49,657 nucleotides of DNA from an uncultured Alphaproteobacteria bacterium (GTDB lineage: Bacteria; Pseudomonadota; Alphaproteobacteria; UBA8366; JADFVY01): the NCBI GenBank assembly GCA_947259795.1, contig CAMYNJ010000016.1:1-49657 (forward strand), read 5' to 3'. The translations under genes and the position numbers were made by a program. The notes under the pieces were generated by a model, which saw only the letters and a program-made list of their open reading frames with translations, had not been told where the DNA came from and did no database searches. The number at the start of each line of letters is the position of its first letter. The stretch's first letter is position 1. Below are positions 24,165 through 37,372 of this stretch, piece by piece.

Positions 24165-25412
24165 ATGCCCCGGACTACCGAAGAAATCGCCCTCGCCAAC
24201 CCCAGCCCGGGGACGCGGCGCAGCCTCAAGGTCCATCGTTATGGAAGGCCGGGCGCCCGGCCCAGGGCCTATTTCCACGCCGCCCTGCATGCCGACGAAT
24301 GGCCGGGGCTGCTGACCCTGAACCATCTGATCGGCCTCCTGGACGCAGCCGACGCCGAGGGCCGGATCGCGGGCGAGATCGTGCTGCTGCCTTACGCCAA
24401 TCCGATCGGCCTCAGCCAGCATCATCACGGCTACAACACCGGACGTTTCGCCGCCGATGGCGGCGGCAATTTCAACCGCCACTGGCCCGACCTGACGGAT
24501 GCCGCGATGGAAAAGCTGGACGGCAAGCTGGGCAACGACCCGGCGGCCAACGAGGAACTGGTGCGCGCGGCGCTGAAGGCCGCCGCCGGCGATCTGCCCC
24601 GCCGGACCGAACTGGAAACCCTGAAGGCGACGCTGCTGTCGCTGTCGACCGGGGCCGACATGGTCTTCGACGTGCATTGCGACAGCGTCTCGATGATGCA
24701 TCTCTACGCCCATAAGAGCCACTGCGACGAGGCCATGGCGCTGGCCGGCGACCTGCAGTCGCCGGCCGTCCTGCTGGAGGACGATGCCGACGATGTTCCC
24801 TTCGATTCCGCCAATGCGGCGCCCTGGATCCGGATCAAGCGGCGGCTCGGCCTGAACGAGGCGCTGCCGGGCGGCTGTTTCGCGGTGACCGTCGAGCTGC
24901 GCGGCCATAACGACGTCCTCGACGACTTGGCCAGAAGCGATGCCGCGGGCCTGTTCCGGTTTCTCATGCGCCGGGGCGTCGTGGCGGGGGACCCGGGGCC
25001 GCTCGTCGAAGCGCCCTGCGCAGCGACGCCGCTGGCCGGCGTGGACGTATTGCAGGCGCCGGGGCCGGGCATCGTCGCCTGGCGCCACGAGATCGGGACG
25101 CGGGTCGAGGTTGGCGAACTGATGGCCGAACTGGTGGATATCGAGGCCGACGATCCGGCCGGGGCGCGCACGCCGATCCATGCCCGCGCATCCGGCCTGT
25201 TCTTCGCCCGCATGGGCAGCCAGGCGAGGCAACGCCCGGCTTCCTCTTTACAAAAGGCTTTCCGGTGTATGTCGGAGGGCCTTTTTATTTGCCTTTCACG
25301 GCCATACCCTGCAGCGCGGTTCCGGAACCGCGGCACAGGCGTTCCCCGTCGGATTTGCAGACTGACGCGAGAATCGTCATCTATCATGGCTTTCGGGCCG
25401 CGCCATCCATGA
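24165..25412 (+). CDS. Succinylglutamate desuccinylase/aspartoacylase family protein, aberrant C-terminus
   Basis: Zinc carboxypeptidase-like hydrolase (AstE/AspA superfamily) that would release an acyl group from an N-acylated amino acid. Metal ligands are visible in AALHADEWPG (His, Glu) and FDVHCDS (His); VTVELRGH holds the catalytic-type Glu. Normal family proteins end shortly after the GLFFAR segment (about residue 345). Here the frame continues about 65 residues in low-complexity, arginine-rich sequence and passes straight through a strong terminator at 25253-25287, so the true 3' end has been altered by frameshift or lost in a rearrangement. The core call is good, the C-terminus unreliable. 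Confidence 0.75.
   Translation: MPRTTEEIALANPSPGTRRSLKVHRYGRPGARPRAYFHAALHADEWPGLLTLNHLIGLLDAADAEGRIAGEIVLLPYANPIGLSQHHHGYNTGRFAADGGGNFNRHWPDLTDAAMEKLDGKLGNDPAANEELVRAALKAAAGDLPRRTELETLKATLLSLSTGADMVFDVHCDSVSMMHLYAHKSHCDEAMALAGDLQSPAVLLEDDADDVPFDSANAAPWIRIKRRLGLNEALPGGCFAVTVELRGHNDVLDDLARSDAAGLFRFLMRRGVVAGDPGPLVEAPCAATPLAGVDVLQAPGPGIVAWRHEIGTRVEVGELMAELVDIEADDPAGARTPIHARASGLFFARMGSQARQRPASSLQKAFRCMSEGLFICLSRPYPAARFRNRGTGVPRRICRLTRESSSIMAFGPRHP
25253..25287 (+). terminator. Terminator inside the aspartoacylase-like frame
   Basis: Stem AAAAGGCTTTCCG / CGGAGGGCCTTTT (25253-25265 and 25274-25286), 13 pairs with two T-G wobbles, 8-base loop, T-rich tail. It lies within the last 160 bases of the open frame, where a terminator does not belong. 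Confidence 0.8.
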
Positions 25413-25457
25413 TTCGTCCATAGGTGCAAGAGTGAGTTTCCGCCGGTGCACGGGATG

Positions 25458-25486
25458 ACAATCTGTCCACTTTCTGGACAGATTGT
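25458..25486. promoter_or_regulatory. Perfect 12-bp inverted repeat, candidate activator site
   Basis: ACAATCTGTCCA and its exact reverse complement TGGACAGATTGT are separated by CTTTC. The centre is about 105 bases upstream of the -24 element of the sigma-54 promoter, the normal distance for an enhancer-binding protein. There is no T-run behind it, so it is not a terminator. The regulator is not encoded in the window. Confidence 0.75.
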
Positions 25487-25575
25487 GTGTCTTGGCCGAC
25501 GAGATCGCGGTGGGATGTGCAGTCTCCAGCACAAATATTGGATGAAAACACTAGAGTACAGTATCGTTGCGGGGT

Positions 25576-25590
25576 TGGCACAGGTCTTGC
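25576..25590 (+). promoter_or_regulatory. Sigma-54 (-24/-12) promoter
   Basis: TGGCACAGGTCTTGC has the GG and GC doublets exactly 12 bases apart and matches the consensus TGGCACG-N4-TTGC at all fixed positions except one (A for G). It lies 148 bases upstream of the RND gene. A small reading frame, MKYLGGY (25696-25719), with GAGGAA before it, occupies the leader. Confidence 0.75.
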
Positions 25591-25738
25591 CCCTTGAACT
25601 TCAGGTTTAGCGCACGGTGGTGCGTATTTTTGATCAAGAAATCTTGGAGTTACTTCTGGGTGATTTGTTGGCGGATTTTTCTGAGGAATGCCGACATGAA
25701 GTATCTTGGTGGGTACTGAGCGTATTAGGTGAGGTTTC

Positions 25739-28700
25739 ATGATGTTCGGCTGGGTTATTGGCTCGAGCCTAAAATTCCGCTTTCTGTTGCTGGCTGTCGC
25801 GGTGGCGTTGCTGGTTTTTGGGATCGAGCAGTTGCGCGATATGCCGGTCGATGTATTCCCGGAGTTCGCGCCGCCAAAGGTGGAAATTCAGACCGAAGGG
25901 CCTGGCATGACCGCCTCGGAGGTGGAAGAGCTGATCACGATTCCCATGGAGGATACGCTCCGGGCTACACCGGGCATTGACATCATTCGGTCGTCGTCAG
26001 TCGAGGGACTGTCGCAGGTCGTGCTGATCTTCAAGCAGGGCGAAGATCTCATGACGGCACGGCAACATGTGCAGGAGCTTGTGGCCGCGGCGATCGCGGA
26101 TCTGCCGCAGTCGGCCGGCATGCCGGTGATGCTCCAGCCCCTGTCATCGACCAGCCGGGTCATGAAGATCGGGTTCTCGTCCGAGGTCCACGACATGATG
26201 GACCTTTCGATGATCGCCTACTGGACCGTCAAATTCCGTCTTATGTCCGTTCCCGGCGTGGCCAATATTCCGATCTGGGGCGAGCGGATCAAATCCTTGC
26301 AGGTGCAGGTCGATCCGGCCCGAATGCGCGCCTACAACGTCACGCTCGACGAAGTCATGGAGACGACGTCGGAGGCCCTGGATTTCGGCTTGCTGAGATA
26401 TACCGGCGCGGCGAAGACCCGGATCGACGGAATGCTCGATACTCCCAACCAGAGACTCGTTATCCACCACGAGTCGCCGGTCTTTGGCCCGGAACATCTG
26501 GCTCAAGTGCCTATCGCCCTGTCAAGAAAGCGCCCCACCGCGCCGCCGCGGCTGGGCGATGTGGCCGACGTGAAATGGGACACATGGCCAATGGTCGGCG
26601 ATGCCGTCATTAACGACAAAGTCGGTCTGATGATGATCGTCGAAAAGTTGCCGTGGGCCAACACGCTCGAAGTGACGCGGGGGGTCGAGGAGGCACTCGC
26701 CGAATTGCAGCCCGGACTTCCCGGCATCGTTATCGACCACGAGATATTCAGGCCGGCGACCTTCATCGAGCAGTCGATCGATAATTTGACAACGGCGCTC
26801 ATCATCGGGGCCGTCCTGGTGGTTATCGTACTTGGGGCCTTCCTCTATGAATGGCGGGTGGCGTTGATCAGCGTCGTTGCGATCCCGCTGTCCCTGGTCG
26901 CGGCGGGATTGGTTTTCTGGTTGCTTGGGGCCACGCTCAACACGATGGTCCTGGCGGGATTCGTCGTCGCGCTGGGTTCCGTCGTGGATGACGCGATCAT
27001 CGATGTCGAGAACATCGTGCGGCGCCTGCGAGAGCACCGCAAGGCGGGTGGCAAGAAGTCGACGGCGCGCATCATTCTGGACGCGTCGCTCGAGGTCCGC
27101 CCCGCGATCCTGCATGCGACGTTGATCATTGCTCTGGCGGTGACGCCGGTCTTCTTCATGGGCGGCCTGGCGGGCGCGTTCTTCGAGCCGCTGGCCCTCG
27201 CATTCCTCCTCGCGATGCTGGCGTCCATGGTCGTGGCGACAACGGTAACGCCGGCCCTGTGTTTCATTTTGTTGGATCGCTCTGCCGTCGAACACCGGGA
27301 GTCCCCGCTGGTTCCATGGCTGAAGCGGATCTACCGCGGGCTTCTGTCATGGGTCATCGATCGGCCACGTGCGACAATGGCCAGTGTTCTAGTCGTTGTC
27401 TTCGCCTGTGCCGGAGTGTTTCCGTTTCTTGGGGAATCGCTGCTTCCTTCGTTCAAGGAAAGGGACTTCCTGATGCATTGGATTCCCCCCTCGGGAACGT
27501 CGCACCAGGAAACGTTCAGGATTACCCAGCTCTCCAGCCGCGAACTGCGGCAGATTCCAGGGGTCCGCAATTTCGGCGCCCATATCGGGCGAGCCGTCGG
27601 TGGGGACGAACCCTACGGCGTGAATTTTACCGAGAACTGGATCAGCGTCGATCCCAAGGTGGACTATGACAAGACACGCGCGGCTATCGAGGAGGCTGTC
27701 GAGGGCTACCCTGGGCTTCGTCGCGACGTGCAGACCTACCTGAGAGAAAGGATAAAGGAAGTCCTGACTGGATCGAGCGATGCCATCGTCGTGCGCATAT
27801 TCGGCCCCGATCTCCCGGTTCTCCGTGAAAGTGCGGATATGGTGTACAAGGCCCTTAGCAACCCCCCGATACCCGGTCTCATCGAATTGCATATTGGGCA
27901 GCAGGTCGAGATCCCGCAAATACAGGTCAAGGTGGACCTCGATGTTGCCGGGCGCTATGGGCTCAAGCCGGGTGACGTCCGGCGGGTGGCGGCCGGTATT
28001 ATGTCAGGCATCGAGGTCACGGACATTCACAAAGCGGGTAAGGTGCATGACGTCTTTGTGTGGTCGCCGGAGTCGATTCGCTCCAATCAGGACAGCCTTC
28101 GAGAGTTTTTGATCGACACGCCCTACGGCGGGCGCGTGCGGCTGGGAGACGTGGCGGACATACGCCTCGTGCCGACCCCCAACAGGATCAAGCGCGAAAA
28201 CAACTCCCGCCGGATGGACGTTGAGGGCAACGTCAAGGGGGTCGACCTCGGCACGGTCGCCAGAGAGGTCGAGGCCCGGATCGAGAAACTGCAGTTCCCC
28301 ATCGGGTACTATCCGGAGGTGCTGGGAGAGTACGAGGCGCGCGAAGCTGCAAAGGAAAGCCTGCTTTACTCATCGATAATCGTCGCGATCGCGATTTTCC
28401 TTATTCTCCAGGCGTCCTTCCGGAACTGGTGGCTGGCCAGCCTGATATTTCTGGCCCTTCCGGCGGCACTGGTCGGCGGCGTGCTGGCGGCCTTCCTGGG
28501 TGACGGCGTCATTTCGCTCGGTTCGCTTGTTGGAATCATCACGGTGCTGGGTATTGCGGCGCGAAACGGCATTCTGCTCATCCAGCATTATCGCCATATC
28601 GAGCAGGTCGAAGGTGAACCCTTCGGTCTCGAGCTTGTCTTGCGCGGCGCCGGCGAACGCTTGTCGCCGATCCTGATGACCACCTTGTGCACCGGTCTGG

Positions 28701-29542
28701 CGCTACTGCCTCTGGTTATTGCCGGAAGCATACCCGGTCACGAAATCGAGCACCCGATGGCCGTGGTTATTTTGGGCGGGCTCGTCACCTCGACTATGCT
28801 GACCCTGTTCGTCGTGCCGCTTCTGTATCTTCGGTTCGGGTCGATAAGAGAGAAAACAGGGGGGCTAAACATGGGGAACGCGCTTTCTTGCCTGCTGGTG
28901 ATCTTGTCCTTGTCGGCCGCCTTCATGGCGCTCGGCACGCCCGCATATGCACAGACGGTCACGAAAACCGAAAAAAGCGCGGAGCCGGATCGGATCCGTG
29001 GCCTGATCTCCGTGGCCGAGGAGTCTTCGATGGTTGTAGAGACCGCTGGCGGCGAGACTGTGCGCATAAGACTCTCGGACAATGTCAGTGTTTTCAGCCT
29101 GGCCAAGGCAAGCTTTACGGACGTGGATTTTGGAACCTATGTCGGTTCCGTTTCGGAGCGGCTGGACGCTTTCAGCCCATTCGTCCGGGATTCGCTGAGC
29201 TGGTTGCATAAGGGGTTGGAACTGCGGATCCTCGATGAAGAATTGCGCGGCATTGCCTTGGGACATACGAGCTGGGACCTGACGCCCGAGAGTGTGATGT
29301 CGCATGGCTGGGTCGATGACCTCGAGATCCGGGTTCTTTCGATCAAGTACGGGCCCACCGAAGAAGAAGAAACGGACGTGGACATACCGCGCGACGTGCC
29401 GATTCTCAGGATGTCGCTCGGGAACAAGAGCTTGATAAAGCCAGGGGCGCACGTCTTCGCCGGCGCGCAGAAGGATGCAGCCGGTGACTATGTGGCAGTC
29501 TTCGTTATGGTCGGTAAAGACGGGGTCGTCCCGTCGTTGTAA
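25739..29542 (+). CDS. RND efflux permease with C-terminal secreted domain
   Basis: The first 1040 or so residues are a CusA/CzcA-type RND proton antiporter of the inner membrane: TM1 with a following periplasmic porter region (PVDVFPEFAPPKVEIQT), TM4 with acidic proton-relay residues (GSVVDDAIIDVEN), and TM10 region with GIAARNGILLIQHY. The frame then continues without a stop through Met1045, a hydrophobic signal-like segment ending AYA-Q and a secreted domain of about 190 residues. Total length is 1267 aa, against about 1040 usual. It heads the sigma-54-controlled unit and is paralogous to the second RND gene at 30642. ATG 25739 has AGGTGAGG upstream. The substrate is unknown; a metal or small organic molecule is possible. 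Confidence 0.87.
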   Translation: MMFGWVIGSSLKFRFLLLAVAVALLVFGIEQLRDMPVDVFPEFAPPKVEIQTEGPGMTASEVEELITIPMEDTLRATPGIDIIRSSSVEGLSQVVLIFKQGEDLMTARQHVQELVAAAIADLPQSAGMPVMLQPLSSTSRVMKIGFSSEVHDMMDLSMIAYWTVKFRLMSVPGVANIPIWGERIKSLQVQVDPARMRAYNVTLDEVMETTSEALDFGLLRYTGAAKTRIDGMLDTPNQRLVIHHESPVFGPEHLAQVPIALSRKRPTAPPRLGDVADVKWDTWPMVGDAVINDKVGLMMIVEKLPWANTLEVTRGVEEALAELQPGLPGIVIDHEIFRPATFIEQSIDNLTTALIIGAVLVVIVLGAFLYEWRVALISVVAIPLSLVAAGLVFWLLGATLNTMVLAGFVVALGSVVDDAIIDVENIVRRLREHRKAGGKKSTARIILDASLEVRPAILHATLIIALAVTPVFFMGGLAGAFFEPLALAFLLAMLASMVVATTVTPALCFILLDRSAVEHRESPLVPWLKRIYRGLLSWVIDRPRATMASVLVVVFACAGVFPFLGESLLPSFKERDFLMHWIPPSGTSHQETFRITQLSSRELRQIPGVRNFGAHIGRAVGGDEPYGVNFTENWISVDPKVDYDKTRAAIEEAVEGYPGLRRDVQTYLRERIKEVLTGSSDAIVVRIFGPDLPVLRESADMVYKALSNPPIPGLIELHIGQQVEIPQIQVKVDLDVAGRYGLKPGDVRRVAAGIMSGIEVTDIHKAGKVHDVFVWSPESIRSNQDSLREFLIDTPYGGRVRLGDVADIRLVPTPNRIKRENNSRRMDVEGNVKGVDLGTVAREVEARIEKLQFPIGYYPEVLGEYEAREAAKESLLYSSIIVAIAIFLILQASFRNWWLASLIFLALPAALVGGVLAAFLGDGVISLGSLVGIITVLGIAARNGILLIQHYRHIEQVEGEPFGLELVLRGAGERLSPILMTTLCTGLALLPLVIAGSIPGHEIEHPMAVVILGGLVTSTMLTLFVVPLLYLRFGSIREKTGGLNMGNALSCLLVILSLSAAFMALGTPAYAQTVTKTEKSAEPDRIRGLISVAEESSMVVETAGGETVRIRLSDNVSVFSLAKASFTDVDFGTYVGSVSERLDAFSPFVRDSLSWLHKGLELRILDEELRGIALGHTSWDLTPESVMSHGWVDDLEIRVLSIKYGPTEEEETDVDIPRDVPILRMSLGNKSLIKPGAHVFAGAQKDAAGDYVAVFVMVGKDGVVPSL
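28871..29542 (+). CDS. Nested or separate secreted protein in frame with RND1
   Basis: Met1045 of the RND frame could be an independent start: AGGGGGG lies about 7 bases upstream, and the product of 223 aa begins with a classical signal peptide (GNALSCLLVILSLSAAFMAL, cleavage after AYA). The mature part has two similar beta-rich halves (RGLISVAEESSMVVETAGG; later WVDDLEIRVLSIKYG) and resembles a periplasmic protein family common in alphaproteobacteria that I know only as uncharacterised. If not started here, the hydrophobic segment becomes a thirteenth membrane helix and the domain is tethered in the periplasm. Either reading places it outside the cytoplasm. Confidence 0.5.
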   Translation: MGNALSCLLVILSLSAAFMALGTPAYAQTVTKTEKSAEPDRIRGLISVAEESSMVVETAGGETVRIRLSDNVSVFSLAKASFTDVDFGTYVGSVSERLDAFSPFVRDSLSWLHKGLELRILDEELRGIALGHTSWDLTPESVMSHGWVDDLEIRVLSIKYGPTEEEETDVDIPRDVPILRMSLGNKSLIKPGAHVFAGAQKDAAGDYVAVFVMVGKDGVVPSL

Positions 29543-29672
29543 ATGAGCGATCGCCGATTTTGGAGCCAAGTCAGGATGGCGTTGGCGGTGAGAGCCACGG
29601 GGCTGGCAATGGGACAGCGACCGCTGGCGTCGGTTGGAGGCGCGGAGCGGGCAGAGATTGGGAGGCAATCCA

Positions 29673-30569
29673 ATGAAACAGGAATTTACGGCCGCCGAGA
29701 GACCAGAACCTAACGGGAAAACGGTGTTTGCCGGGTTTGCTGCCTTGGCAGCAGCGGCGATGCTTCTGTTTGCGCCGGCGGCGCATGCGGGCGGAGCAGG
29801 GCCGACCAGCCCCAGCGATGCGGTCTCGTTCGAAGAGATTCCGGGGAGCACCATCAAGCGCGTCATTTTGACCACGAAGGCGGCCGAGCGGCTAGGCATC
29901 GAGACCGGCAAAGTGGAAGAAAAACCGATCGTCCTTAACCAGATGGTAGGTGGCAAGGTTATCCTCCCGAAAGAAAATCAGCCGGAGCCGAGTGGGAAGC
30001 TGACCAACGGCCAGTTTGGCGCGTTCGGGCAAGTGGTGGCTTCGATGACGCCGCAGCCGGCCGCGGCGCCGCCGACAGTGCCCGCCGCCGGCGAGGTCTG
30101 GGTGCATGTGACGCTGTCCAAGGGGGAGTGGGAGAGGATAGCGCAGGTAGCGCCGGCGCGCATCTCGCAGTTGGCCACACGCGACGACTTGAAAAGCGAA
30201 GTGCTGGCCCTGCCATCCAAGATGCCGCCGGTTCAGGACATGAAGCGCTCCATGTTGTCGCTGTACTACGTGGCGCCCGGCAAGGATCATGGCCTGACAC
30301 TGTATCAGCGCGTGCGCGTCGAGTTGCAGCTGACGGGCAGTGGGGAAAAGCGGATGGTCGTGCCCTACAGTGCGGTTTACTACGACGGAAAGGGTGCGCC
30401 ATGGGTCTACGTCAACCCGGAGCCGCTGGTATTCGAACGGCAACGCATCGAGGTTGAACGTATCGTAGGCGATGTGGCGATTGTGACGGACGGCCCGCCG
30501 ACCGGAACCACAGTCGTGACCGTTGGTGCGGCGCTGCTTTACGGCGCCGAAGTCATCTACAAGAGATAA
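29673..30569 (+). CDS. Short RND periplasmic adaptor-like protein
   Basis: Secreted protein, 298 aa, with a signal sequence ending AHA-GG. The middle and C-terminal parts resemble the beta-barrel and membrane-proximal domains of HlyD/CusB-type adaptors (GEVWVHVTLSKGEWERI; RMVVPYSAVYYDGKGAPWVYV). I see no long helical hairpin and no lipoyl-like halves, which normally occupy the first 200 residues of an adaptor; instead there is a Pro/Ala-rich linker. ATG 29673 is preceded by GGGAGG seven bases away; the frame from 29634 has no such site. It is placed between the two RND genes and could serve both. Confidence 0.72.
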   Translation: MKQEFTAAERPEPNGKTVFAGFAALAAAAMLLFAPAAHAGGAGPTSPSDAVSFEEIPGSTIKRVILTTKAAERLGIETGKVEEKPIVLNQMVGGKVILPKENQPEPSGKLTNGQFGAFGQVVASMTPQPAAAPPTVPAAGEVWVHVTLSKGEWERIAQVAPARISQLATRDDLKSEVLALPSKMPPVQDMKRSMLSLYYVAPGKDHGLTLYQRVRVELQLTGSGEKRMVVPYSAVYYDGKGAPWVYVNPEPLVFERQRIEVERIVGDVAIVTDGPPTGTTVVTVGAALLYGAEVIYKR

Positions 30570-30641
30570 AGGCGCACAAGGATTTTCTGCACGCGGCGCC
30601 GGTTTTTTCGGCACGCGAACGCAAAGAAGGAGAAATTGGGG

Positions 30642-33600
30642 ATGTTTCGCTGGATTGTTGGCTCGAGCCTGGAACTCCGCTTCGTGGTAATGGGGGCCGC
30701 CGTGGCGCTGGTCGCATACGGAACTGTCCAACTACAAAAAATGCCCGTCGACGTCTTTCCCGAGTTCGCGGCGCCAACTGTGGAGATTCAGACGGAAGCG
30801 ATCGGGCTCTCGGCCGAGGAGGTGAAGAGCTTGATCACCCTCAATCTCGAGGAGCTGATGTCCGGGGTGCCGTGGCTTGAATCGGTTCGCTCGGAATCGG
30901 TGACCGGCCTGTCGTCGATCGTACTCACTTTTGAGCGTGGAACCGACATCATCAAGGCGCGGCAGATGGTTCAGGAACGCCTTGCGCTGGCCTATACCCT
31001 GCCGAATGTTTCACAACCGCCTACGATCCTCCAACCGCTCTCGTCGACCAGCCGCTTCATGATGATCGGCATCTCGTCGGACGAGGTCGAGCCCACGGAT
31101 CTGTCGCTGATCGCCCGGTGGACGATCAAGCCAAAACTGGTGGGCGTGCCCGGCGTGGCCAACGTGGCGATTTGGGGTCAGCGCTTGCGGCAACTGCACG
31201 TCCAGATCGATCCCGACCGGCTGCGTGACGCCCGTTTGATGCAAAGCGACATCATCGCGGCTACGGGCGACGCGCTGTGGGTGTCACCCCTGACCTTCCT
31301 GAAGGGATCAATGCCCGGAACCGGCGGCTGGGTCGATAACCCCAACCAGAGGCTCGGCGTTCACCACAATATGCCGATAACGACGCCAGAGGATTTGGCG
31401 AAGGTGGCCGTTGCGCCACGCCATCTGCTGATGACCGGCAAGCAGATGTCGTTGGGCGAGGTTGCCGAGGTGTCGTTCTCGCACCCCCCGCTTATCGGTG
31501 ATGCTATCGTGAACGACGGCAAGGGTCTCTTGCTGGTTGTCGAAAAGCTTCCGTCCGCCAACACATTGGAAGTCACACGCGGGGTCGAAAAGGCGCTCGC
31601 CGAGTTGGGTCGCGGCCTCCCCGGCGTGAAGATCGACCCCACCGTCTTCCGGCTGGCGTCGTATATCGAGGATTCGTTATTCAATCTGACTCAGGTTTTT
31701 ATTATAGGAACCGTCCTCGTAATTCTGGTCCTTGGCGCGTCCTTGTACAATTGGCGGAGTGCGGTGATCAGTATCGTGTCGATCCCGATATCGTTGTTGG
31801 CCGCCGTGATCGTTCTCGATCTGATGGGTGCGACGATCAACACCATGGTTCTTGCCGGTTTGGTTGTCGCGCTTGGCGTCGTCATCGACGATGCGATCGT
31901 CGGTGTCGACAAGCTTATGGGACGTCTCCGTGAGCGAGAAGAAGGCGGCGGCGCTTCGATTGCTTCCGTCATCTATGAGACGACGGTGGAGACGCGAAGT
32001 ATCACCACTTACGCTGCGCTGATCGTCGTACTGGGCGTTACGCCGATCCTCTTCATGGGCGGGATGTCGGGTGCGTTCTTCCAACCGTTGGCCCTGTCCT
32101 ATATGCTGGCGGTGTTGGCGTCCTTGGTCGTTGGATTGACCGTAACGCCTACGCTGAGCTTGCTGCTTTTCGGAAAATCGCCCGCCCAGCCCTCCGAGTC
32201 GCCCGTTTCGGTTTGGCTTGGCGGTAAGTATGAGGCGGTTCTCGGGCGCGCCATGAATGCGCCGGGCACGGTGTCTGTCGCGGCCGGCGCCCTGATCGTG
32301 GCCGGCCTCGCGTTATGGCCAATGTTAGGGCAGTCGTTGCTTCCGCCGCTCAAGGAAAGGGAGTTGCTGGTGAACTGGAACACCGCGCCCGGCACGTCCT
32401 ATGAAGAGACTTACCGGATCACGTCCCGGGTCAGTCGCGAATTGAAGTCGTTGCCCGGCGTGCGAAACGTCGGCGCCCATGTCGGTCGAGCGGTGACGGG
32501 AGACCAGATCGTGGGGATCAATTCGAGCCAGATCTGGGTCGGCATCGATCCCAACGCTGACTACGACGAGATGGCCGCCAAGATTCGGGAGACGATCGAC
32601 GGGTACCCCGGTATCGATCGTAGCCTGCAATCCTATTTGCGCGACACGGTCAGTGAAGTGCTGAGTGGCGAGACCCAAGCGCTCGTCGTGCGAATCTTCG
32701 GCCAAAACCGCGACATACTGCGGCAGAAGGCCGAGGAGGTCAGGCTGGCACTTTCCGATGTGGACGGGCTTGTCGATCTGCGCACTGTGGGCCAGGTGGA
32801 GGAGCCGCAGGTGCAGGTAAAGGTGGATCTCGATGCGGCTGGACGCGCGAGCGTAAAGCCGGGCGAGGTGCGACGTTCGTCGGCGACGGTATTCTCCGGA
32901 CTGACCGTCGGTTACCTCTACGAAGAGCAGAAGATCTTTGATGTGGTGGTCTGGAGTCCACCGGAGGCACGCAATAGCCTGACCGATCTTCGCGATCTTT
33001 GGGTCGAAAAATCGGACCGTCACCACGTACGTCTGGGCGATGTCGCGGATGTCGAGATCGTGTCGACCCCGATGGTCATACGGCATGCCGGTACCGCGCC
33101 TTACTTCGATGTCGTGGCCAACGTGACCGGACGCGATATTGGATCGGTCAACCGCGATGTCGAAAGTCGCATGGCGGCGGTGGAGTTTCCACTTGAATAT
33201 CACCCTGAGATTCTCGGCGAATTTGCCGAGCGATCGGGTGCCGTTAAGCGCGTAGCGGGTGTTGGTATTGCCGCACTGGTCGGAATTTTCCTTCTGCTGC
33301 AGGCTTGCTTTAACAGCTGGCGCCTGGCGCTGATCGCGTTCCTGGCGATCCCGGCATCTATCGCCGGCGGGCTACTGGCGGCGCTTGCCGGCGGTGGCGT
33401 GATCTCGCTGGGCTCGATCGTCGGGCTCCTTGCGGTCCTGGGCCTTGCCACTCGAAACAGCATCTTGCTGATCAATCAGTATCGGCATCTCGAGGGTCAG
33501 GAAGGCGTTCCGTTTGGTCTCGGCCTCGTCATCCGCGGGGCACGGGAACGGATGTCACACATCATGGCGAGTTCCACGGCGATTGTCGCGGCGCTGCTGC

Positions 33601-33776
33601 CGATCGTCGTTTTCGGACTGATCCCCGGCCTCGAGATCGTGCGGCCAACGGCGATCGTCATTATTGGCGGCTTGCTGGCCTCGACCCTGCTCACCTTGTT
33701 CGTCATACCGGCCCTGTATCTGACCATCGGGTCGGGGGCGAACCGCCACTCCGACATCGGCCTGGCCGAAGCGTAA
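30642..33776 (+). CDS. Second RND efflux permease
   Basis: CusA/CzcA-type RND permease, 1044 aa, normal length. It is clearly paralogous to the first RND protein, sharing for example FRWIVGSSLELRF, KMPVDVFPEFAAPTVEIQT and GLATRNSILLINQYRHLE. The TM4 relay reads GVVIDDAIVGVDK, keeping the two Asp but with Asp in place of the Glu of the first pump. Start ATG 30642 has AAGGAG at 30627-30632; a TTG two codons earlier is too close to it. Two adjacent permeases with one adaptor recall RND pumps that work as heteromers, but this is only inferred. Confidence 0.88.
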   Translation: MFRWIVGSSLELRFVVMGAAVALVAYGTVQLQKMPVDVFPEFAAPTVEIQTEAIGLSAEEVKSLITLNLEELMSGVPWLESVRSESVTGLSSIVLTFERGTDIIKARQMVQERLALAYTLPNVSQPPTILQPLSSTSRFMMIGISSDEVEPTDLSLIARWTIKPKLVGVPGVANVAIWGQRLRQLHVQIDPDRLRDARLMQSDIIAATGDALWVSPLTFLKGSMPGTGGWVDNPNQRLGVHHNMPITTPEDLAKVAVAPRHLLMTGKQMSLGEVAEVSFSHPPLIGDAIVNDGKGLLLVVEKLPSANTLEVTRGVEKALAELGRGLPGVKIDPTVFRLASYIEDSLFNLTQVFIIGTVLVILVLGASLYNWRSAVISIVSIPISLLAAVIVLDLMGATINTMVLAGLVVALGVVIDDAIVGVDKLMGRLREREEGGGASIASVIYETTVETRSITTYAALIVVLGVTPILFMGGMSGAFFQPLALSYMLAVLASLVVGLTVTPTLSLLLFGKSPAQPSESPVSVWLGGKYEAVLGRAMNAPGTVSVAAGALIVAGLALWPMLGQSLLPPLKERELLVNWNTAPGTSYEETYRITSRVSRELKSLPGVRNVGAHVGRAVTGDQIVGINSSQIWVGIDPNADYDEMAAKIRETIDGYPGIDRSLQSYLRDTVSEVLSGETQALVVRIFGQNRDILRQKAEEVRLALSDVDGLVDLRTVGQVEEPQVQVKVDLDAAGRASVKPGEVRRSSATVFSGLTVGYLYEEQKIFDVVVWSPPEARNSLTDLRDLWVEKSDRHHVRLGDVADVEIVSTPMVIRHAGTAPYFDVVANVTGRDIGSVNRDVESRMAAVEFPLEYHPEILGEFAERSGAVKRVAGVGIAALVGIFLLLQACFNSWRLALIAFLAIPASIAGGLLAALAGGGVISLGSIVGLLAVLGLATRNSILLINQYRHLEGQEGVPFGLGLVIRGARERMSHIMASSTAIVAALLPIVVFGLIPGLEIVRPTAIVIIGGLLASTLLTLFVIPALYLTIGSGANRHSDIGLAEA

Positions 33777-34077
33777 ACCAGGTAACGGAATGACGAGAGT
33801 TGATCGATGACCGGTTCAATAACAAAGTGCGGCTATCGATCACGCCCCGCGATGGCATACGGGAATGCCGTTCCTTGCCTCGCTGCTGCCCCCCTTCCTT
33901 CGCTTGGCGGAAAAAGGTGTGGTGTAACGGCGATGGCAATCGCGAATTCGTGTCTGGAACGTTTGCCGTGCGGTCAATGGATGGGACAGTTTGACCAATT
34001 TGCGGTCCTTATCGGTCGTGTTGTGGGATCCCGCAAAGGTTTAGATACCGGCGGAATGCGAGTAGGAGATTGCTCTC
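33777..34077. other. Intergenic region between RND2 and the barrel gene
   Basis: A 92-codon frame starts at ATG 33807 and overlaps the next gene start, but it has no ribosome-binding site, no domain and mixed codon use, so I do not call it a gene. No terminator is seen, so the downstream genes may be on the same transcript. Confidence 0.4.
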
Positions 34078-35778
34078 TTGGCTAATCGCAGCGACGGACA
34101 GCGCAGCAACGGCCTGAACCGGACATTCGCAGCAGCGGCAGTCGGCGTGACGTGGTCGGCCGTGCTCGTCGTCATATTTGGCTCGAGCCTGCCGGCTGTT
34201 GCCGCTGAGACAAAGATCGATACGGTGGATGACGGCCCCACCGATGCGTTGCTGGTTTGGGCCGACGCTACTGGGGAGAGCCTGCGCCAGGACGATGCGG
34301 CAATGATCCCGAATGGCGGTCAGCTGAGGGCGGAACCGATCTCCGAGCAGCAGGCGTCCGTCGACGCCAGCAAGGACGTATGGTTCTATTTTGACAGTAC
34401 GTCTGCCGGGAATAGCGCAGGGCAGCCGACAAAGGCGCACACTGCGGACGACGCGATCGATATTCAGTTGGCGCAGTTTCAGTTGCCTCAGCCCACAAGC
34501 GAGGGGGAAGCTCCGTCGAAGCAACTACCCCAGCGTTTGACCTACGAGTATTCGTACGGCACCGAGTCGGAGGTTACCTATCGCGTCAACCCCGATCTCA
34601 ATGATCGCGTCCGAGATGACTTTCTCATCGTGACGCCGCAACTGAACGGTAGCGTCACCTATCGACCGTCCGACTGGCTGGAAACAACGCTGGAGATGAC
34701 GATAGAGAGAGAATTCCCTGTACAGGAGGAGCAGGTCGTGACTCTTCCAGACGGAGAGCTGCAATTTGCCGAAAACAGGAAAACCTCGCTACTCGTTGAC
34801 CAGGCGTTCGTAACGCTCAAGGATGTTACGGACCCGTTCGAGCTGACGTTGGGGCGCAAGAATTTCGAGGACAACCGGCACTGGCTGTATGACACTTCGT
34901 TGGACACTGCCCTCGTGTCGTTCAAGCAAGGAGCCTTCCGCGCCGAAGCGAGCGTGAGCCGGGAAAATCTCTGGGACCTGGACCTGACTGACAAGGTCCA
35001 GCGGGATCGAATCGATACCTACATGTTGTACGCGGGCTACCGTGGGATCGAAGACATCAGATTGGCCGGTTATACGGTTATGCGACATGATCTCGACGGG
35101 TTAGAAGGACGGCCCCTGCTCATGGGTGTACGGTCACTCGGCACGGTATCCGAGAGTTTCAGTTATTGGAGCGAACTTGCTCTTCTGCGTGGCGAGGACG
35201 AGCAGTCGCGGAGGTATTCGGCTTTCGCTATCGATGTCGGCGGCACATATCGGTTCACGGGTCTTCCGTTCAACCCGAACGTCACCCTGGGTTATGCGTT
35301 CGGGTCCGGCGACAAGAACCCTGACGACAACAAAAACAGCGAGTTCCGCCAGACCGGCCTGCAGTCGAATGAAGCCAAATTCGCCGGTGTCTCCGAATTC
35401 CTGGTTTACGGCGAGGCGCTTGATCCGGAACTGAGCAATCTCGAAATCTTCACCGTGGGCCTCGGCTTCCGGCCGGCGCCGAACGTATCTACCGACTTTG
35501 TTTATCATCGCTACCTGTTGGACGAGATTGCGGAAGAGCTTCGTGACTCGGCGCTGACAGCCCTGATGAACCAGGATGACACGCAGTTGAGCAAGGATAT
35601 GGGGAGCGCCTTCGACATTGTAATCGGGTTGCGCAACTTGTTCGGTGTGCGGCGGCTCGGACTGGACTTGAGGGCGGGCTGGTTCATTCCTGGAAAAGCC
35701 TTTCAGATCGACGACGGCGGCGGCAGCTTCCGCAAAGCTGACCAAGGTATTTCCGTGGTTGCGAAGTTATGGTGGTGA
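34078..35778 (+). CDS. Outer-membrane beta-barrel protein, AlgE/alginate-export-like
   Basis: Secreted protein, 566 aa, with a signal peptide ending AVAA-E, an N-terminal extension of about 120 residues, then alternating hydrophobic strands separated by acidic loops and a C-terminal aromatic (KLWW), all typical of a monomeric outer-membrane barrel. The strand pattern (DWLETTLEMTIERE, AFVTLKDVTDPFELTLGRKNF, GYRGIEDIRLAGYTVMRHD) recalls the alginate-export/AlgE family. The start is TTG 34078, eight bases after AGGAGA; no better ATG exists. It follows the two RND genes and may provide the outer-membrane exit in place of a TolC-type channel. Confidence 0.75.
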   Translation: MANRSDGQRSNGLNRTFAAAAVGVTWSAVLVVIFGSSLPAVAAETKIDTVDDGPTDALLVWADATGESLRQDDAAMIPNGGQLRAEPISEQQASVDASKDVWFYFDSTSAGNSAGQPTKAHTADDAIDIQLAQFQLPQPTSEGEAPSKQLPQRLTYEYSYGTESEVTYRVNPDLNDRVRDDFLIVTPQLNGSVTYRPSDWLETTLEMTIEREFPVQEEQVVTLPDGELQFAENRKTSLLVDQAFVTLKDVTDPFELTLGRKNFEDNRHWLYDTSLDTALVSFKQGAFRAEASVSRENLWDLDLTDKVQRDRIDTYMLYAGYRGIEDIRLAGYTVMRHDLDGLEGRPLLMGVRSLGTVSESFSYWSELALLRGEDEQSRRYSAFAIDVGGTYRFTGLPFNPNVTLGYAFGSGDKNPDDNKNSEFRQTGLQSNEAKFAGVSEFLVYGEALDPELSNLEIFTVGLGFRPAPNVSTDFVYHRYLLDEIAEELRDSALTALMNQDDTQLSKDMGSAFDIVIGLRNLFGVRRLGLDLRAGWFIPGKAFQIDDGGGSFRKADQGISVVAKLWW

Positions 35779-35884
35779 AACACGCACAGCCGCGATCGGG
35801 CATGCGTCACTTGTGCGCCGGTTTCTGTCTGTGTGCCGGCAGACCAACAGCATGAATCCTATTTGATGCGAAGGAGAGCATTCC

Positions 35885-36586
35885 ATGGTTACGCGAACAT
35901 TCAAATTTGTCCTTACCGCTGCGGCTGTTCTTGCGTTTTCCACGGCATGGGCCCAGGACAAGGGAACTAGCTCGCCCTGGCAAGAGGAGTTCGGTATCTC
36001 GAACTGCAATCTGCTGACAGAAGGACGAAATCAGTACTTCGTCATGGAGCCCGGCTTTCAGCTCGTTTTGGAGGGGGGCGATACGAAGCTCCAGATCACG
36101 GTCCTCGATGAAACCAAGACGATCGACGGGGTAGTCACGCGCATCGTCGAGGAAAAGGAATGGGAAGACGGAAAATTGTACGAAATCTCGAGGAATTACT
36201 TCGCGATGTGCGAGGAAACGAAAGATATCTTCTATTTCGGTGAAGACGTGGATTTCTACAAAGGTGGCAAGGTGGTCAAGCATGACGGCTCATGGATCGC
36301 CGGAACGGACGGCAACAGGGCCGGCCTGATTATGGCCGGAACGCCGAAATTGAAGATGATGTACTATCAGGAGATCGCGCCCGGTGTGGCGATGGATCGG
36401 GCAGAGATCGTCAGTCTTGACGAGACGTGCAAGACACCTGCAGGTACGTTTTCCAAATGCATGAAAATCAAGGAAGGCACGGCCCTCGACGTTAACGAAA
36501 CAGAGTACAAATATTATGCGCCAGAGATTGGGCTCATTCGGGACGAAGACTTGCGGCTAATCGAGCACGGTTTCGTAAAAGACTGA
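35885..36586 (+). CDS. Secreted protein of unknown function
   Basis: Protein of 233 aa with a clear signal peptide (TFKFVLTAAAVLAFSTAWA-Q) and a beta-rich acidic mature part. Four Cys remain after cleavage (ISNCNLL, FAMCEETK, DETCKTP, FSKCMKI) and could form disulfides in the periplasm. I do not recognise the family; the repeated pattern of two-strand segments resembles periplasmic ligand-binding barrels. ATG 35885 is preceded by GAAGGAGAG. It is the last gene of the RND unit and is followed by a terminator, so it is likely a functional part of that system. Confidence 0.65.
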   Translation: MVTRTFKFVLTAAAVLAFSTAWAQDKGTSSPWQEEFGISNCNLLTEGRNQYFVMEPGFQLVLEGGDTKLQITVLDETKTIDGVVTRIVEEKEWEDGKLYEISRNYFAMCEETKDIFYFGEDVDFYKGGKVVKHDGSWIAGTDGNRAGLIMAGTPKLKMMYYQEIAPGVAMDRAEIVSLDETCKTPAGTFSKCMKIKEGTALDVNETEYKYYAPEIGLIRDEDLRLIEHGFVKD

Positions 36587-36710
36587 CAGGCTAAGCAATT
36601 CGAGCCCGAGAGACGCGGACGCTCTCTGTTCGGCGCCTTTCTGGATAGACAGGGATGTGGCGCGACTCTGCAGCGATTCACGTCCACTCACTCCGCCGAA
36701 TAAAGTTTAG

Positions 36711-36745
36711 AAGGGTTGGGTTACCGAGACCCAACCCTTCTTTCG
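36711..36745 (+). terminator. Terminator of the RND unit
   Basis: Perfect 11-bp stem AAGGGTTGGGT / ACCCAACCCTT (36711-36721 and 36729-36739) with a 7-base loop and a T-rich but interrupted tail (CTTTCG). It lies 125 bases after the last gene of the unit. Confidence 0.75.
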
Positions 36746-36821
36746 TACTGTCCGTCGTCAAAGTTCTGGGACGGTGCAGGGTCTGAACTAGAGGAGGCTC
36801 TGCTACATCTGGTTGATCAGT

Positions 36822-37021
36822 CTATGCGGCGGCTCTTCGGTGTCGCAGGCGCCGCTGCTTGATGGTCCTTCGTTTGATCCTCCCTCATTTCAATAAGATA
36901 GTTGGCCTCGCCCGAAATAGACCTCGGCGGGCGTGAGATCACCCAGGCTCCCGTGATAGCGCTGGTGGTTGTTATGCTCGATGAAGGCGCCGATCCGGGC
37001 TTCGAAGTCACCGGGCAGACT
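36822..37021 (-). pseudogene. IS3-family transposase remnant (C-terminus only)
   Basis: The minus strand encodes LPGDFEARIGAFIEHNNHQR, then YHGSLGDLTPAEVYFGRG, the hallmark end of IS3-family OrfB integrases. After FGRG the frame must shift by one base to continue as ILLK-stop-GRIKRRTIKQRRLRHRRAAA, so there is one frameshift and one nonsense codon. An in-frame TGA also stands just before the remnant. The rest of the transposase and the element ends are missing. This shows past mobile-element activity at the right edge of the RND unit. Between it and the tRNA terminator (37022-37252) I see nothing else supportable. Confidence 0.8.
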
Positions 37022-37252
37022 AGGACTTCAGACACGGTCCTTCCGTACATCCGTTCCCAAGCCGAGAGCAGACGGAAACCGGGAGGAGCGGACATGGATT
37101 CCCCAACTCCGCTCACCCACGCGCTTTGCGACGGCATATGAATTCCGGATTCAGCAATGTCAATTCACCCGCAAGTATTACCCCATGCAGGACACAAACC
37201 GAACGGATGTTGCAGACCGCCTGCAAACCGGCGATACAAGTTTAAAAGAGAA

Positions 37253-37296: not shown

Positions 37297-37372
<76 letters not shown>

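Follow-up and report, generated by a model that had tools for sequence, protein, structure and literature searches.

Sigma-54 control of RND efflux pumps is already described. In Pseudomonas putida CbrB together with sigma-N controls PP2810-PP2813, a probable RND operon (PMC6296734), and the target loci of Nla28 in Myxococcus xanthus include the CusAB-type MXAN989 (CusA/CusB) and the RND locus MXAN7147 (PMC9765219). The original prediction, in which such control was considered unusual for an RND unit, was thus overstated. In the window (the whole stretch of 49,657 nucleotides analyzed here) the promoter architecture found upstream of an RND cassette is that of a textbook sigma-54 promoter. The features referred to below are the following.

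25213 to 37251, no strand assigned: insertion, absent from a same-genus genome, whose left edge truncates an astE/aspA-like gene starting at 24165
25458 to 25486, no strand assigned: perfect 12-5-12 palindrome, candidate enhancer-binding activator site, single copy in the genome and absent from relatives
25575 to 25591, plus strand: TTGGCACAGGTCTTGCC, a predicted sigma-54 promoter of the -24/-12 type, with transcription expected to start near 25602
25742 to 29542, plus strand: RND1, CusA/CzcA-like permease, ATG at 25742 (or 25739), fused in frame to a periplasmic protein of ~200 aa
29634 to 30569, plus strand: short periplasmic adaptor, RND_mfp-like, start uncertain
30636 to 33776, plus strand: RND2, second RND permease, 49% identity to RND1
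34078 to 35778, plus strand: Alginate_exp-family channel protein of the outer membrane, start uncertain
35885 to 36586, plus strand: final cassette gene, encoding a DUF3108-like exported protein that scores 26.9 bits, slightly below the cut-off of 27 set by Pfam
36709 to 36741, plus strand: hairpin with a 12-bp stem and a T-rich tail, probably terminating the cassette
36749 to 37020, minus strand: IS3-family element, truncated, close to the right-hand end of the insertion

PP2810-PP2813 resembles this locus in that it probably encodes an RND efflux system, has a GG-N10-GC promoter, which lies ~127 bp ahead of the start codon, and is preceded by activator sites. However, its RND genes are not the same as those found here, and its control by CbrB involves non-palindromic sites and requires IHF, whereas here the palindrome is single, long and perfect and an IHF site is not clearly recognisable. 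The Nla28 targets are similar in that CusA-like and RND efflux genes have been reported under a sigma-54 activator, but the binding motif consists of repeats of 8-bp half-sites, unlike the palindrome. As to the proteins, TIGR00914 (CusA/CzcA heavy-metal RND) was the best NCBI family for RND1, and CusA and ZneA were its best solved structures; the scores of RND1 (579 bits) and RND2 (454 bits) fell short of the curated cut-off of 701 bits for this family. The cassette differs from the CusA/CzcA systems in having two different RND subunits per operon, an Alginate_exp-type channel and extra periplasmic proteins. No description of this two-permease RND cassette was found in the literature searched, and the interest of the locus, which we consider moderate, comes mainly from the RND cassette itself being uncharacterised.

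The promoter and the operon are, judging from the comparison with close relatives, acquired from elsewhere, a fact that the original prediction had overlooked. In a same-genus genome (locus L094) the window was matched up to 25215 and again from 37252, just before a tRNA-Lys gene (37297-37372), with 144 bp in between. Both this genome and another of the genus (L105) have an intact, conserved end of the astE/aspA-like gene. The empty site and the intact gene ends indicate therefore that these ~12 kb are an insertion in the lineage of the window. It replaced the final ~30 codons of the astE/aspA-like gene, the frame of which (24165-25412) now reads on into foreign DNA. Within the insertion, a terminator-like hairpin (25252-25285) and the promoter region are followed by five genes and then by a terminator, and no recognisable regulator was found there.

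The -24/-12 match was present as originally claimed. The sequence TGGCACAGGTCTTGC at 25576-25590 has the GG-N10-GC spacing of the sigma-54 consensus TGGCAC-N5-TTGC and is the top match of the window, with 16.7 bits against 12.9 for the runner-up, scores that are good for ranking only since the matrix was an approximation of published frequencies. When the upstream region of 400 bp was shuffled 500 times, the best score reached was 15.1. When one mismatch was permitted the window contained 4 sites, versus 4.0 expected by chance, so that the weight lies on the exact site. The start codon of RND1, the first gene of the downstream RND unit that had also been correctly recognized (a CusA/CzcA-like permease ending at 29542), is located 148 bp 3' of the site, and both the site and the palindrome lie in non-coding DNA 5' of this gene. 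Altogether we accept with good confidence a sigma-54 promoter at 25575-25591, from which transcription would start near 25602 (about 25601-25604). About 8 bases past this predicted start, at 25610-25630, there is a small hairpin followed by ATTTTT, which could be an attenuator or a chance structure.

The palindrome, ACAATCTGTCCA-N5-TGGACAGATTGT, was also present as claimed. It is a perfect 12-bp inverted repeat, 29 bp overall, with its centre ~104 bases upstream of the TGGCAC, within the range of roughly 70-200 bp of activator enhancers. Its presence is beyond chance: inverted repeats with arms of at least 12 and a loop of 3-10 appeared once in total in 20 Markov-1 copies of the window, versus two in the real one (the palindrome and the terminator-like hairpin at 36709). 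No further copy was found in its own genome, it was missing from the 60 relatives searched, and even with up to 3 mismatches there was no match in 385 genomes of the class. Several known types of element could be discarded. The palindrome is not a terminator, its stem being strong but without a T run; it does not fit the NifA site (TGT-N10-ACA), as the spacing here is 11, nor the GlrR consensus TGTC-N10-GACA, as the spacing here is 9; and the Rfam search gave no match. A second tandem site is frequent for these activators although not obligatory; here the next best copy had mismatches at 11 of 24 positions, the same as in shuffles. No convincing IHF site was found between the palindrome and the promoter, 37% of the shuffles matching equally well.

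The best comparison for this arrangement is found within the same organism. On contig 162 (L127:2583-2726) there is a second sigma-54 site with an 11-bp perfect palindrome, GATGTACATAATTTATGTACATC, centred ~117 bp upstream; it precedes response-regulator and cytochrome genes, with an enhancer-binding activator gene ~4 kb off, and is a cleaner case than 25458-25590. Thus, a sigma-54-like site and a long perfect dyad are found at a like distance twice in this organism, and because the second such layout is near an activator gene, a role as activator site is plausible for our palindrome, and on balance we favour it slightly.

Putting the two elements together, the explanation that we prefer, although by no means strongly, is that a sigma-54 promoter and an NtrC-family activator acting at the palindrome drive the imported RND cassette. 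Bound to the palindrome, 104 bp further upstream, the activator would loop to the RNA polymerase at 25575-25591 and, upon some signal, open the promoter, leading to transcription of the five genes. The polymerase site predicted in this mechanism is well supported by the sequence, whereas the use of the palindrome by an NtrC-family activator and the presence of this activator in the host are inferred. Against the mechanism count the single copy of the palindrome, the lack of a clear IHF site and the absence of both the palindrome and a consensus site from nine orthologous cassettes. The search for the cognate activator also gave little. As had been stated originally, the activator is absent from the window, no PF00158 gene being present on its contig. 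The genome, 66% complete, has four true activators (the sister genome, 96% complete, has six), and neither a second copy of the palindrome nor a palindrome-like dyad beside the activator genes was found in it. In six relatives, the loci of 30 activator genes likewise had no such dyad. Proximity of an activator gene to its dyad is common but not obligatory, and the cognate activator may be lacking from the assembly or may have been left behind in the donor. The promoter part of the original proposal is well supported by the exact site, rpoN and the enrichment in the genome described below, while the activator-site part is plausible but not proven, as the palindrome occurs once, has no recognised cognate activator and precedes none of the nine orthologous operons.

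The strongest competitor, which we nevertheless regard as unlikely, keeps the sigma-54 promoter as real but has the palindrome bound as an operator by some unrelated dimeric regulator (of the TetR, GntR or IclR type, for example), which would modulate the operon or an undetected promoter. A perfect dyad of 29 bp exceeds most activator sites, which in one systematic survey were mostly 4-6-bp repeats spaced 3-8 bp (PMC3333781), and its single copy also suits this reading. In the relatives, versions of the core palindrome with two mismatches were ~3 times commoner than those of its control, nearly all the inspected cases being in coding DNA or 5' of unrelated genes; diverged dyads with TGTCCA/TGGACA arms are nevertheless intergenic and located 5' of oxidoreductase genes in order-level relatives, which speaks for this reading. 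However, a consensus scan of 25200-25800 revealed no sigma-70-like promoter near the palindrome, a position 104 bp upstream fits an activator and not a repressor of a sigma-54 promoter, and the matching layout on contig 162 also argues for the activator.

Less probable still is that the sigma-54-like sequence arose by chance, the actual promoter escaping consensus scans and the palindrome being an operator or a leftover from the donor. Exact matches to TGGCAC-N5-TTGC in the genome were 15, versus 5 for the reversed control pattern, and these five prove that chance matches do arise; moreover, the orthologous cassettes manage without the site. On the other hand, at least 9 of the 15 exact sites are outside same-strand reading frames of at least 100 codons; from the control, far fewer exact matches would be expected in non-coding DNA. 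No sigma-70 alternative was found. Several of these non-coding sites precede plausible genes, such as the cluster of response-regulator and cytochrome genes and those for two signalling proteins resembling receptors (chemotaxis receptors). The host does have rpoN (a 540-codon open frame on contig 139, E 1e-68), which was detected in 18 of the 20 genomes searched. Finally, the palindrome might be part of a mobile element without regulatory role (insertion-sequence ends, a MITE or an insertion-edge hairpin), as the insertion that holds it is acquired and has an IS3 remnant at its other edge, but its single copy, its location 245 bp inside the left junction and the lack of meaningful matches in plasmids or viral contigs, which also speak against a family of repeats or an origin in a phage or plasmid, make this very improbable.

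The cassette was found in nine other genomes from several phyla (two Variovorax, two Rhodospirillales/Rhodospirillaceae, a Nitrospiraceae, a Betaproteobacterium, an unclassified Proteobacterium, an Anaeromyxobacter and a Rokuibacteriota bacterium), with RND1 identities of 64-76%, and has apparently spread across these distant phyla by horizontal transfer. The order is RND, adaptor, RND, Alginate_exp channel and DUF3108-like protein, plus the ~200-aa periplasmic protein; in the two Variovorax cassettes the last two genes are swapped, and in two others (L014 and L016) the contig ends within RND2. Neither the palindrome nor a consensus sigma-54 site was found upstream of any of the nine. Only one of them (L017) has a weaker sigma-54-like match, CCGGCACCCAACTTGCA at -110, its 11.7 bits being somewhat over the 10.0 that marks the 95% level among shuffles, with nine regions tested. 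No upstream element was shared by the nine beyond chance 11-13-mers, and no regulator was consistently adjoining among the ten neighbours tested, the sole regulator-type neighbour being an ECF-type sigma factor gene beside one cassette (L020). Since the ten copies examined have no upstream element in common, the comparison suggests that transferred cassettes get plugged into differing regulatory settings. For this uncharacterised and widely scattered RND cassette, the window provides one concrete, predicted sigma-54 promoter. More tentatively, the mobile two-permease cassette might be, in this lineage, under an undescribed sigma-54 activator recognising the palindrome, and the pump would then be tied to a signal new to efflux.

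The periplasmic protein fused to RND1 (28859-29542) has a signal-peptide-like start, MGNALSCLLVILSLSAAFMALGTPAYAQ, and the search for relatives with a solved structure gave none. RND1 stops at residue 1040-1057 in each of the nine relatives, where the periplasmic protein is outside its frame, and the fusion here is either real or a sequence error. More distant relatives of RND1 (L026-L092; 56-62% identity) are found in actinobacteria and Chloroflexi (Arthrobacter, Catellatospora and Ktedonobacteraceae), groups without a typical outer membrane.
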